The notes: generated by a model not told the origin, from the letters alone. A stretch of 50,880 nucleotides of DNA from Alphaproteobacteria bacterium (GCA_030739855.1 JASLYJ010000010.1:1-50880); one strand, 5' to 3'. Positions 32,462-50,880 are shown, numbered from the stretch's first letter. Program-made: numbers and translations.

Positions 32462-32863
32462 ATGAAAAAAATTTTCTTATTTTCACTCACTGCCGCTTTT
32501 GGTGCTCTTGCTCTCGCTGGTTTCCCAGTAACGGCATCAGCGGAGGCGCCTGATCTCCGTGGTGTGTGGAAAGGCCAGAACAATACGGTTTCGGTCCAGG
32601 AAGGATACCGCCACCGCGAAAAATCTATTAACATCACTGATCAGAAAGGCCGCCGCTTCAAGGGTACCGTGGATTACGGTGATGGTATCAACAGTTTCGT
32701 CGGCGTGCTAAGGGGGGACAGCAAGTCGTTCATCTGGGTGGACATCAAGAATGATGGACATGTATACGGCACTCTTCTTAGTCCCGGAGTGATGGAAGCC
32801 TGTTACGCAAATACTGGTAGTGCCGCAGTGGCCGGCTGTGCAATTCTGATGCAGCAGCCGTAG
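32462..32863 (+). CDS. Small secreted protein, unknown function, paralogue of the gene at 50587
   Basis: 133 residues with a clear signal peptide (MKKIFLFSLTAAFGALALAG, cleavage near ASA-EA). The mature part looks like a small beta-barrel domain: GVWKGQNNTVS, INITDQKGRRFKGTV, then alternating hydrophobic strands and GHVYGTLLSPGVMEACY. It has two Cys near the C-terminus that could pair. Residues 30-68 match residues 60-98 of the protein starting at 50587 at 21 of 39 positions without gaps. I cannot name the family. The membrane protein at 32871 starts 7 bases after its stop, so they form one unit. Confidence 0.85.
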   Translation: MKKIFLFSLTAAFGALALAGFPVTASAEAPDLRGVWKGQNNTVSVQEGYRHREKSINITDQKGRRFKGTVDYGDGINSFVGVLRGDSKSFIWVDIKNDGHVYGTLLSPGVMEACYANTGSAAVAGCAILMQQP

Positions 32864-47849: not shown

Positions 47850-47880
47850 ATGTAGGACCAACAGAAGAAGGGGAATGGAT

Positions 47881-48705
47881 ATGATACCCCGTTTTGGATG
47901 GGGGCCGTTTGCCGGAATATTGAAGCAGGCAAAAATGCTTACTGGAGCCGATGACCACCGCCTGTTTTTGAAATGGCTGGTCTTTGCCGGGGTCCTGGTT
48001 TTTGCTGGTTATCTAATATGGAAACTCGGCCTTCTGGGCCTGCTTTTCTCTAGTGACAAGAGTTTTCTCTCCTTTTTCATTCTGCTCATCTTCATTGGCA
48101 CCACCCTGCATTGTGCAGTGCGAATCTTTCGTACCTCCAGGGAAATCAATCTCACTCGCTGCATCGGCGAAATTCTTGAAGGCAGTGTCGAAGGCAAGCT
48201 CACCCGCGAGAGTGCCGGTGTAGTCTTGAGCGGAAGAACAGCATTGCCGTCATGCATTATGGGTGACTATATCGCCGACCTCATACAAATCTACTTGCAC
48301 CATGCTGGCGTCAGAAATGAAAACGGCGGCAATGGGGACCCCATAGGGCTCATGGAATCCTATGAGAAGGACCTGAAGAATAGTTCAGAAATCGGCTGGT
48401 TCCTGTCTGACATGGTGATCAAGATCGGCCTTCTTGGCACGGTGGTGGGCTTCATCATCATGCTCTCTTCCGTTTCCAATGTAAGCGCCATTGATGCTAG
48501 CGTTATGCAGGACATCCTCACCCATATGAGTGGTGGCATGGGGGTGGCACTCTATACCACACTAACCGGGCTTATATGTGGGGCACTGCTGGGCCTTCAG
48601 TGCCACTTCCTTGACCGTGGCACGGAAACCCTGGTGGTTATGATGGTGCGGATTTCCGAAGTCCAAGTGATGCCCCGCCTGGGTGGGGGAAGCGAGCTAG
48701 GATGA
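47881..48705 (+). CDS. MotA/TolQ/ExbB-type proton channel subunit
   Basis: 274 residues from the ATG at 47881, which has AAGGGG 7 bases before it; an ATG at 47875 and an extension to 47782 are less likely. Two helices near the N-terminus (about 29-51 and 60-80), a cytoplasmic region (about 85-175), and two helices in the conserved MotA_ExbB domain: IGLLGTVVGFIIML (182-195) and MGVALYTTLTGLICGALLG (220-238). These are the proton-pathway helices of the family. Two helices before the cytoplasmic domain and two after resemble MotA topology more than the three helices of ExbB. The stop overlaps the next start. Confidence 0.9.
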   Translation: MIPRFGWGPFAGILKQAKMLTGADDHRLFLKWLVFAGVLVFAGYLIWKLGLLGLLFSSDKSFLSFFILLIFIGTTLHCAVRIFRTSREINLTRCIGEILEGSVEGKLTRESAGVVLSGRTALPSCIMGDYIADLIQIYLHHAGVRNENGGNGDPIGLMESYEKDLKNSSEIGWFLSDMVIKIGLLGTVVGFIIMLSSVSNVSAIDASVMQDILTHMSGGMGVALYTTLTGLICGALLGLQCHFLDRGTETLVVMMVRISEVQVMPRLGGGSELG

Positions 48706-49304
48706 GCAGCACGCGGGCGCGTCGGGGTTACCATACAGACCCCTTCACTGACCTTCTCTTTAACGCGCTGCTCGGGTTCACCTTCCTTTTTTTGGTGGCG
48801 ATTATGTTTATGAATCCCATCGCCAAGGAAGGGATCATCAACCTCAAGGCCGAATATATCGTTACCGTCTCTTGGCCGGACGGCAATCCTGACGACATCG
48901 ACGTATGGATAGAAGGCCCCAGAGGCAACCTCGTCTGGTTCCGCAATCCTGAGGCTGGGTTGCTGCATCTCGACCGCGACGATCGTGGCGCGCTTAACGA
49001 CACTCTTGAAATCGAGGGAGAAACAGTTACCAATCCTCTCAACCAAGAAATCGTCACCATGCGGGGCATTGTTGCCGGGGAATACGTGGTGAATATCCAC
49101 TATTACGCTTCGGAAACCGAGCAGCCGGTGGATGTCACCGTAAAGGTTGAAAAGATCAACCCCTCTCTCGAGGTGGCTTACTATAAAACGCTGACTCTAA
49201 ACCATAAAGGTGAGGAAAAAACAGCAGTTCGCTTCAAGTTGACCGCAAGCGGCGAAGTCTGGGGAACCAATTCCCTGCCGAAACAGATTGTGACCATAAA
49301 ATAA
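48702..49304 (+). CDS. ExbD/MotB-like one-helix partner with an unusual periplasmic domain
   Basis: 200 residues. Short basic cytoplasmic start (SSTRARRG), then TDPFTDLLFNALLGFTFLFL with Asp13 and Asp17 at the mouth of a single helix, the pattern of the proton-carrying Asp in ExbD, TolR and MotB. The periplasmic part is not an ExbD or OmpA-like domain. It is beta-rich, with DDIDVWIEGPRGNLVWF and LLHLDRDDRG, resembling DUF2135-type sandwich domains, then GEYVVNIHYYASETEQPVDV. ATGA overlap with the channel gene strongly supports a stator pair. Assignment of the C-terminal domain is tentative. Confidence 0.82.
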   Translation: MSSTRARRGYHTDPFTDLLFNALLGFTFLFLVAIMFMNPIAKEGIINLKAEYIVTVSWPDGNPDDIDVWIEGPRGNLVWFRNPEAGLLHLDRDDRGALNDTLEIEGETVTNPLNQEIVTMRGIVAGEYVVNIHYYASETEQPVDVTVKVEKINPSLEVAYYKTLTLNHKGEEKTAVRFKLTASGEVWGTNSLPKQIVTIK

Positions 49305-49325
49305 AGCAAGCTAAGGGGGAGAAAG

Positions 49326-49847
49326 GTGTCCGTAATCATTTTTGGCCTTGTTTTCTGTTTTTTGATTCTAGCAGTTCTTCTACTGTCACTGAATCTCTAC
49401 ACGTCCTTCCATTGGTCCATCAAAGCCACTGCCGTAGTGGTAGTTTCGATCTTCTATATTCTGGGTTATCAGTCGCTGATGGCATTATTGGGCTGGCCCA
49501 CCTATCAGCCTCTGCCCGAAGAGTTTCGTTTTGTGGGTATGCAGGTATATGAACCCGACAAACTTACCCTATCGGAGGGAGCCATTTATCTGTGGGTAAC
49601 CTCTATGTCGGAAAACGTAGGCCAAGGCGTACCACGCGCCTACCGGATCGAATACGAAGAAAGCCTCCATCAGAAGTTGATCCGAGCCCGAGTTAAAGAC
49701 AAGGCCGGGGTGCCGCAGATGGGCAAACTAGTGAGTCCTGAGCTTGGTGATCAATCACTTTCCAATCTAGACCTTTCACGATACGCCGCTCAGAGCGTGG
49801 ATATCGATTTCTTCGATCTTCCCTCCCTGATCCTGCCAGAAAAGTAA
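49326..49847 (+). CDS. Two-helix membrane protein of unknown function
   Basis: 173 residues, GTG start at 49326 after AAGGGGGAGAAAG. Two hydrophobic helices (about 2-23 and 30-53), then a soluble domain (about 60-173) with FVGMQVYEPDKLTLSEGAIY, YLWVTSMSEN and PRAYRIEYEESLH. I do not recognise the family. It lies 21 bases after the ExbD-like gene and 9 before the lipoprotein, so it belongs to the same operon. With two helices and short loops it may be a structural or plug subunit of the channel pair. Confidence 0.8.
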   Translation: MSVIIFGLVFCFLILAVLLLSLNLYTSFHWSIKATAVVVVSIFYILGYQSLMALLGWPTYQPLPEEFRFVGMQVYEPDKLTLSEGAIYLWVTSMSENVGQGVPRAYRIEYEESLHQKLIRARVKDKAGVPQMGKLVSPELGDQSLSNLDLSRYAAQSVDIDFFDLPSLILPEK

Positions 49848-49856
49848 GGGCGTTTT

Positions 49857-50567
49857 ATGATGGCATTATCGGTAAAGAGAAATCTTTTCACCGTTGCCCT
49901 GGCTGCTCTGGTTTTAGGAGGATGTCTGGAGGATAATCCCATCTACTTTCCTTTGGATGGGGGGCGGGACTGGTCCTATGGAGTAACACTAGAAAATGCT
50001 AAAGGAATCTTCCTCCAGAAATCCTTCGTCACCAACTTACCCAGCAGTAACGTGGAGGGGGAAAAATTGGTCCCTCGGCGTCTGCATAACGGTGAGATCT
50101 ACTTCTATAAAGAAACAGATGATGGCGTAATGCGGGTGGCTGCTAACCGCCCCGGCACCAGTCTTTCCTGGGAGTCAGAGCCCACTCGTGTGCTGGGCTA
50201 CCCTCTGACGCCAGGAACTCGCTGGACTCAGAATGAACAGTCCTATCTATTCCACGAGTACATGGGCCAGGGTGATTACAATGAAATAGTCGTGCCCATG
50301 CTGATAGTATACGAGATAGAAAGCATGGGTGAGATAGTAGAGGTACCTGCCGGAGTCTTTAATAACTGTATTAAGGTGAAGGGTTTGGGTGAGACCTCGG
50401 TACGGGTTAAGACCCCAAATCCCCTGGAAGATTTCATTGACCTCACCGTGGAAACTACCCAGTGGTTCACGCCCCACGTGGGGCTGGTAAAATCAAAATA
50501 TCACGAAGCCTCGTCAAACCCCCGTATCGTCGGCGGTGATTACGTGAAGGTCCTAGAGAAATTCTGA
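49857..50567 (+). CDS. Outer-membrane-type lipoprotein of unknown function
   Basis: 236 residues. Lipobox L-G-G-C with Cys23; +2 is Leu, so it is probably sorted to the outer membrane. The mature domain starts NPIYFPLDGGRDWSY and contains YPLTPGTRWTQNE, EVPAGVFNNCIKVKG and TTQWFTPHVGLVKSKY. This Y-F-P-L...W-x-Y / P-A-G-x-F-x-N-C / W-F-x-P-x-V-G-L-V-K pattern is shared by many small bacterial secreted beta-proteins, but I cannot give a firm family name. Two ATG codons in a row open the gene. It is the fourth gene of the operon. Confidence 0.82.
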   Translation: MMALSVKRNLFTVALAALVLGGCLEDNPIYFPLDGGRDWSYGVTLENAKGIFLQKSFVTNLPSSNVEGEKLVPRRLHNGEIYFYKETDDGVMRVAANRPGTSLSWESEPTRVLGYPLTPGTRWTQNEQSYLFHEYMGQGDYNEIVVPMLIVYEIESMGEIVEVPAGVFNNCIKVKGLGETSVRVKTPNPLEDFIDLTVETTQWFTPHVGLVKSKYHEASSNPRIVGGDYVKVLEKF

Positions 50568-50586
50568 GCACCATGAGGAAAAGGCT

Positions 50587-50880
50587 ATGAAGAAAGGAAC
50601 TGGCACAAAGATTCTCTGGGCGTTGACCCTGTTCAATGCAGTCATCCTTCTCTCCATGATCATTGTCTGGGCATGCCGTCATCATAATTATCACGGGAGA
50701 GGGCATCACGGGGGCTCCCATCACCAAGGCGGTTACCATCACCAGAAAGAGTCACGGCCCATCCCCGAGCTCACCGGCACCTGGTCGGGGACAAATCGTA
50801 CCGTATCTGACTTGAAGGGCTTTAAAGAATGGGAGAAAACCATTCACATCACCGAACAGCGGGACCGCCGCTTTAAGGGC
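50587..50880 (+). CDS. His-rich membrane-anchored protein, 3' end outside the window
   Basis: 98 codons seen, then the window ends. GAGGAAAAGG precedes the ATG. One hydrophobic helix (9-29, ending W-A-C at 28-30; a lipoprotein is possible but Trp at -2 is unusual). A His-rich stretch follows with nine His in residues 32-52 (HHNYHGRGHHGGSHHQGGYH), then a domain starting PELTGTWSGTNRTVS and IHITEQRDRRFKG. Residues 60-98 match the secreted protein at 32462 at 21 of 39 positions. It is the fifth gene of the operon, 19 bases after the lipoprotein. A periplasmic metal-binding role is possible. Confidence 0.8.
   Translation, partial: MKKGTGTKILWALTLFNAVILLSMIIVWACRHHNYHGRGHHGGSHHQGGYHHQKESRPIPELTGTWSGTNRTVSDLKGFKEWEKTIHITEQRDRRFKG

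Follow-up and report, generated by a model that had tools for sequence, protein, structure and literature searches.

A conserved three-gene set of the MotA/TolQ/ExbB class in Alphaproteobacteria and their phages, and its linkage to PQQ genes

The window, by which we mean the whole analysed stretch of 50,880 nucleotides, ends in a run of genes of which the first three, here named P1, P2 and P3, recur together and in the same order on bacterial chromosomes and on phages. That these genes form a genuinely conserved trio belonging to the MotA/ExbB class we regard as close to certain, and the assignment to this class of motors is well supported, while the function itself is what we infer. The reading as a whole, namely a distinct motor family that serves PQQ-dependent oxidation in bacteria and is carried as an accessory module on phages, stands in our view at an even balance. 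More tentative is the wider proposition of an undescribed three-subunit motor family, widespread on phages, exchanged between phages and bacteria and built into PQQ metabolism by the latter, and any specific task for the trio, taken by itself, must be called doubtful.

Gene layout and genome setting

An ORF reading of the window gave five genes at 47881-50880, all on the plus strand and separated by -4, 21, 9 and 19 bases, the same coordinates and gaps that an earlier note on this DNA had reported:

P1: 47881..48705, + strand; four-helix channel protein of the MotA/TolQ/ExbB family, 274 aa (Pfam PF01618 and structure-profile matches)
P2: 48702..49304, + strand; one-helix partner with membrane Asp17 and a periplasmic beta-sandwich (AlphaFold model, alignment)
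P3: 49326..49847, + strand; two-helix membrane protein with a small alpha/beta C-terminal domain (locus conservation, model)
P4 (gene 4): 49857..50567, + strand; lipoprotein, clade-specific fourth gene (signal, weak DUF3108-like match)
Gene 5: 50587..50880, + strand, 3' end beyond the contig; N-terminal hydrophobic anchor, His-rich linker and a TGTWSGTNRTVSD... domain

The ATG at 47881 was taken as the start of P1; a second in-frame ATG is present at 47875. The upstream neighbour of P1 is a divergent gene of the MazG type (named by sequence), so the operon probably begins at P1. The window spans contig C11 from end to end; the genome measures 1.41 Mb and is 88% complete. Gene 5 is therefore cut at 98 aa.

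Conservation of the trio in bacteria

A search with P2 found relatives in 56 of 385 Alphaproteobacteria genomes, normally inside the trio, and almost every fetched bacterial locus that no contig end interrupts has P1 and P3 along with P2. Since the trio is likewise complete in about 77 of 80 loci from viral contigs, the grouping is not due to chance; P3 in particular was found in the uncut bacterial trio loci and in 77-79 of the 80 viral ones. The earlier note had named scattered homologues of no conserved order as an outcome that would speak against an operon, and what we found is a conserved order. It had also treated all five genes as one conserved machine. This idea of a five-gene unit had to be given up, as gene 4 is limited to one clade and gene 5 to the genus, which leaves P1, P2 and P3 as the conserved unit. 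Departures from the common arrangement are a locus in which P3 lies between P1 and P2 (L050), duplicated P3 genes in some bacterial loci and three extra P2 copies without P1 (L037, L038, L042).

Four families (f1, f9, f24 and f50) carry the trio in 4/4 sampled genomes each, and with several families holding it in all sampled genomes the inheritance looks vertical. A phylum-wide search added a single family beyond the class, f189, in all three genomes of which P4 stands behind the trio. The search of plasmids yielded no match with P1, and with P2 only members of a distant branch, in Azospirillum megaplasmids (H28-H34), on which the distant-branch P2 is found at two places per replicon.

Features of the three proteins

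P1 reaches 34.4 bits against the Pfam family MotA_ExbB (PF01618; cut-off 22.9), in agreement with the four-helix MotA/ExbB-type channel that had been read from the sequence before. A profile built from 35 relatives matches the solved structures of MotA, PomA, TolQ and ExbB, with MotA and PomA as the best matches. Alignment to TolQ and MotA shows that the Gly/Thr motifs of the two pore helices are conserved in P1, and Thr187 (48439-48441) and Thr227 (48559-48561), the latter being the second Thr of a TTL motif, align with conserved Thr residues of TolQ. All 118 relatives have Thr227, and 111 of the 118 have Thr187; in all three f189 genomes (L183, L184, L185) Thr187 is replaced by Lys. The P2 of L184 and L185 visibly retains its Asp although Thr187 of the cognate P1 is Lys. 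P1 of isolated phages is only 138-158 aa long, and about 12 residues separate its helices 2 and 3.

The AlphaFold model of P2 (57 aligned sequences, pLDDT 87) comprises a helix at residues 14-37 and a beta-sandwich at 52-190. The membrane Asp17 (codon 48750-48752) is present in 118 of 125 P2 sequences, among them all those from phages, and the Asp-bearing one-helix partner of the earlier description is thereby borne out. Six residues of the beta-sandwich (W58, D65, D67, R92, D93 and E116) show no exchange in any of the 125 sequences. The seven P2 proteins without Asp17 (loci L064, L043, L075, L044, L186, L187 and L040) are all bacterial, form one clade in the P2 tree and have Val or Ala at this position, six of them combining Asp17Val with Asn21Lys. 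Given the loss of Asp17 in these seven and the Lys at position 187 of P1 in f189, ion flux may differ there, while for most members we consider it probable that the trio conducts ions.

P3 was recovered as the two-helix membrane protein noted earlier, with helices at residues 2-25 and 30-54 followed by a small alpha/beta domain at 66-135 (model pLDDT 83.5). The P2 and P3 of the window match no Pfam family above cut-off, with weak matches only across their relatives, and a comparison of the two models with solved structures gave no significant match. Weak matches of P2 relatives were obtained to DUF2135 (5 of 37 members, best E 0.017) and to PPC (2 of 37 members, best E 0.03), both below cut-off, and a kinship with these families is suggestive only. 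The search of BFVD with P2 gave seven matches below 1e-3, all to large or uncharacterised phage proteins with TM-scores of about 0.5 at most, and so just a loosely shared beta-domain is indicated. An OmpA-like peptidoglycan-binding domain is absent from P2, both in profile searches of relatives and in the AlphaFold model.

Comparison with known motor systems

According to the earlier note the operon belongs to no known Tol, Ton, Mot or Zorya set and lacks TolA, TonB, Pal and an OmpA-like domain. Both statements are upheld: a canonical tolQ-tolR-tolA set (named from sequence) lies elsewhere in the same genome, the scores of P1 fall far short of the cut-offs for Ton, Mot and Zorya, Pfam gives no match to TolA, TonB or Pal, and P2 is without the OmpA-like domain. 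Like Tol-Pal, the trio has a TolQ-family protein whose last two helices bear Gly/Thr motifs, a one-helix Asp partner and three membrane proteins in all, with a lipoprotein in addition in the clade of the window. It differs in that P1 has an extra N-terminal helix compared with TolQ, the beta-sandwich domain of P2 does not match TolR, P3 and P4 are not TolA and Pal, respectively, the trio occurs on phages and the genome has its separate tolQRA. No TolR-type partner, TolA or Pal was found by Pfam, and P2 and P3 are without a solved fold.

With ExbB-ExbD-TonB the trio shares membrane plan and channel residues; it has, however, no TonB (no match among the five proteins), no receptor and other periplasmic domains, and P1 reaches only 14.4 of the 135.35 bits required by the exbB2 model in the NCBIfam scan. 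MotA-MotB and PomA-PomB are alike in their four helices and provide the best structure matches of P1, but the trio is without the OmpA-like peptidoglycan-binding domain of these stators, the cytoplasmic part of P1 is much smaller and its score against the PomA model is 14.8 bits where 341 are required. Zorya ZorA-ZorB belongs to the same class of ion-driven motors. P1 scores 12.3 bits at best against ZorA (NCBIfam, 500 required), and in PADLOC its best match is again ZorA, a weak one of 17.7 bits, with none for P2 and P3. The trio departs from Zorya by the absence of an OmpA-like ZorB and of the effector genes ZorC/D/E and by its vertical, core-like inheritance.

An ordinary paralogue of TolQR or ExbBD would have the superfamily in common with the trio, and orthology of the channel pair with TolQR, ExbBD or MotAB was the second outcome that the earlier note had set against its own proposal. 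The exbB2 and PomA scores fall short by far, canonical tolQ-tolR-tolA is present besides, P2 matches neither a TolR nor an ExbD fold and the pair travels with P3. We have dropped the paralogue as highly improbable on these grounds, and no such orthology was found. The genome of the window also contains a third MotA/TolQ/ExbB-like gene (378 aa; L003, G000:C98, 25-2343) as part of another motor-like pair, preceded by a gene with an OmpA-like-looking C-terminus.

The list of uses for this motor class is short and comprises motility, Tol, Ton, gliding, secretion and Zorya (PMC12204202). Operons with inner-membrane-tethered vWA force transducers are a recently described motor-linked set (PMC12204202), so new branches of the superfamily are still turning up; the trio differs from them in having no vWA domain and other partners. 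An ExbB gene of Lentisphaerae phages, annotated as Ton energiser and with no trio described (PMC11361711), is alike as an ExbB-like gene in a phage, a comparison made by description and not by sequence, and a phage-borne ExbB-like gene as such is hence not new. In our partial literature library, including the motor-class surveys PMC12505986, PMC12204202 and PMC9389320, we found no description of the trio, which together with its distribution appears to be new.

The trio on phages

Scanning IMG/VR with the P2 alignment revealed 251 contigs that encode a P2 relative. Among the best 80 of these 251 loci, 79 have P1 and 77 have P3, arranged in the same order, and the trio-related contigs reach up to 527 kb. 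Genes for terminase, head maturation protease, PhoH, primase and sigma factor are found in the flanks, which identifies at least those contigs as phage. Since IMG/VR assignments are computed, isolated phages carry more weight: P2 occurs in 27 isolated-phage records, all of Rhizobium or Sinorhizobium phages, and the trio is present in order in 8/8 isolates examined. These are the T4-like RHph_I1_9, P10VF, RL2RES and RHph_I1_18, then RHph_N3_13, whose P3 was assigned by position and sequence pattern without a profile match, and finally NV1.1.1, RHph_X2_25 and the temperate 16-3, in which one or two small genes are interposed. In the examined isolates the trio genes are annotated as hypothetical, in 16-3 by gene number alone.

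In the P2 tree, which has a midpoint root only, the bacteria of the window branch fall into a single clade (support 99) that lies among phage rows, and the phages like 16-3 are placed with the bacteria of the distant branch. One bacterial P2 (L069, G332, family f24) is placed among phage rows and adjoins a PQQ_ABC_repeats gene. Another bacterial locus, L189, resembles a prophage and has endolysin-like and trypsin-like genes close to the trio (read from sequence). A trypsin-like, probably periplasmic protease recurs by the trio in unrelated phages (L161, L165, L168, L163, L189 and L121, the last as an example of the jumbo-phage loci).

The best reading of these data is an accessory module of alphaproteobacterial tailed phages. 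A more specific role would be that of an envelope module for superinfection exclusion or defence, in which an ion-driven complex blocks incoming phage and which, used against competitors, was retained by bacteria. The occurrence on unrelated phages would suit such a role, as would the weak PADLOC matches to ZorA. In the G554 prophage and in phages like 16-3 the trio also has lysis-type genes and a trypsin-like protease, probably periplasmic, close by, and cargo genes typically occupy such a position. We nevertheless consider it unlikely, because no effector gene travels with the trio, the ZorA scores are very low, the bacterial neighbours are metabolic and many families keep the trio in all or nearly all sampled members, unlike patchy defence genes. 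Even less probable is a part in phage lysis or membrane takeover with the bacterial copies as domesticated remnants: T4-like phages hold the trio among replication genes and others by terminase or capsid-protease genes, the channel residues are conserved and the bacterial loci are metabolic. That the set consists of membrane proteins, that lysozyme and endolysin-like genes are close by in RHph_X2_25 and the G554 prophage and that bacterial rows are nested among phage rows in the P2 tree (midpoint root only) are the points in favour of a lysis part.

Linkage to PQQ genes

In bacteria of the window branch, a gene for a PQQ-dehydrogenase, PqqE or a PQQ-linked ABC protein is found near the trio in 15 loci from 9 families (fetched stretches). 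Curated models place PqqE directly before P1 in L185 (524.6 bits, above cut-off), PQQ_ABC_ATP directly after P3 in L066 (above cut-off), a PQQ_ABC_repeats gene in the trio neighbourhood of L067 and a PQQ dehydrogenase adjoining P3 in L071. These neighbours are mostly convergent or divergent to the trio, with the same direction and close packing in L185. No PQQ genes were found in the viral trio loci (0/80, best 80 of 251 IMG/VR loci). A strong PQQ-dehydrogenase match is present in 26 of 30 window-branch genomes versus 74 of 355 others (Fisher p 5e-13, kinship ignored) and, at the level of families, in 13 of 14. In the distant branch the excess is weak (11/26, p 0.05), and two of its loci adjoin a PQQ dehydrogenase. 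The window itself and the surroundings of the trio in its nearest relatives yielded no PQQ gene, so that the PQQ link of the window rests on homology; its MAG, 88% complete, has a weak PQQ-dehydrogenase match only. Taken together, a tie between the function of the bacterial trio and quinoprotein metabolism appears to us neither more nor less probable than its absence.

A rival explanation would be an ExbBD-like uptake energiser with P3 or P4 in the place of TonB, feeding an outer-membrane receptor for an alcohol, lanthanide or PQQ. The trio and ExbBD share superfamily and membrane plan, PQQ enters E. coli via the TonB-dependent receptor PqqU (PMC12124388), and an 828-aa gene that immediately follows P4 in L184, on the opposite strand, possibly codes for an outer-membrane receptor. 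Neither a TonB-type protein nor a receptor is conserved with the trio, however, no fold of the ExbD or TonB kind was found for P2 and P3 and no receptor was seen travelling along with the phage trios, and we regard uptake of this kind as improbable, somewhat more so than superinfection exclusion.

Proposed function

Our preferred reading is that P1, P2 and P3 would constitute a distinct ion-driven inner-membrane motor family within the MotA/TolQ/ExbB superfamily. By analogy with the superfamily, a ring of P1 would enclose the P2 helices, ions, most likely protons, would pass via Asp17 of P2 and Thr187/Thr227 of P1, and the resulting motion may be handed on to the periplasmic beta-sandwich of P2. 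P3 is the putative integral third subunit, probably facing the periplasm, and in the clade of the window the output may reach the outer-membrane lipoprotein P4. In bacteria of the window branch the machine would most likely serve the PQQ-dependent oxidation of alcohols in the periplasm; it may load the enzyme or carry cofactor or substrate across the envelope.

The motor class would become wider by an additional branch that is present on bacterial chromosomes and many phages and has two partner proteins without a known fold. Its presence on phages raises the question of why a phage needs an ion-driven envelope motor, and for bacteria the trio would offer a concrete candidate for an energy-driven step in connection with quinoprotein oxidation.

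Genes 4 and 5

P4 carries a signal of the lipoprotein type which ends in LVLGGC (Cys23, codon 49923-49925), and with Leu at position +2 the protein is probably located in the outer membrane, as the earlier note had read it. Pfam gives a weak DUF3108-like match. Homologues of P4 are found only in the clade of f1, f9, f130 and f189, placed after P3, and the eleven P4-bearing rows form one clade in the P2 tree (support 84). In the two sister genomes (L057, L058) gene 5 is about 177 aa long and followed by one to two further copies of gene 4 and then by a convergent gene; these operons have two to three lipoprotein copies each, the repeats being placed after gene 5.

The search for relatives of gene 5 gave matches only within the genus, plus a paralogue of its conserved domain in the window itself (32462-32863), which has a signal peptide and no His-rich stretch. 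As the His-rich part of gene 5 varies in length between the sister species and is absent from this paralogue, it reads as a linker and not as a conserved metal site, and the metal-binding or carrier role once proposed for gene 5 was abandoned.
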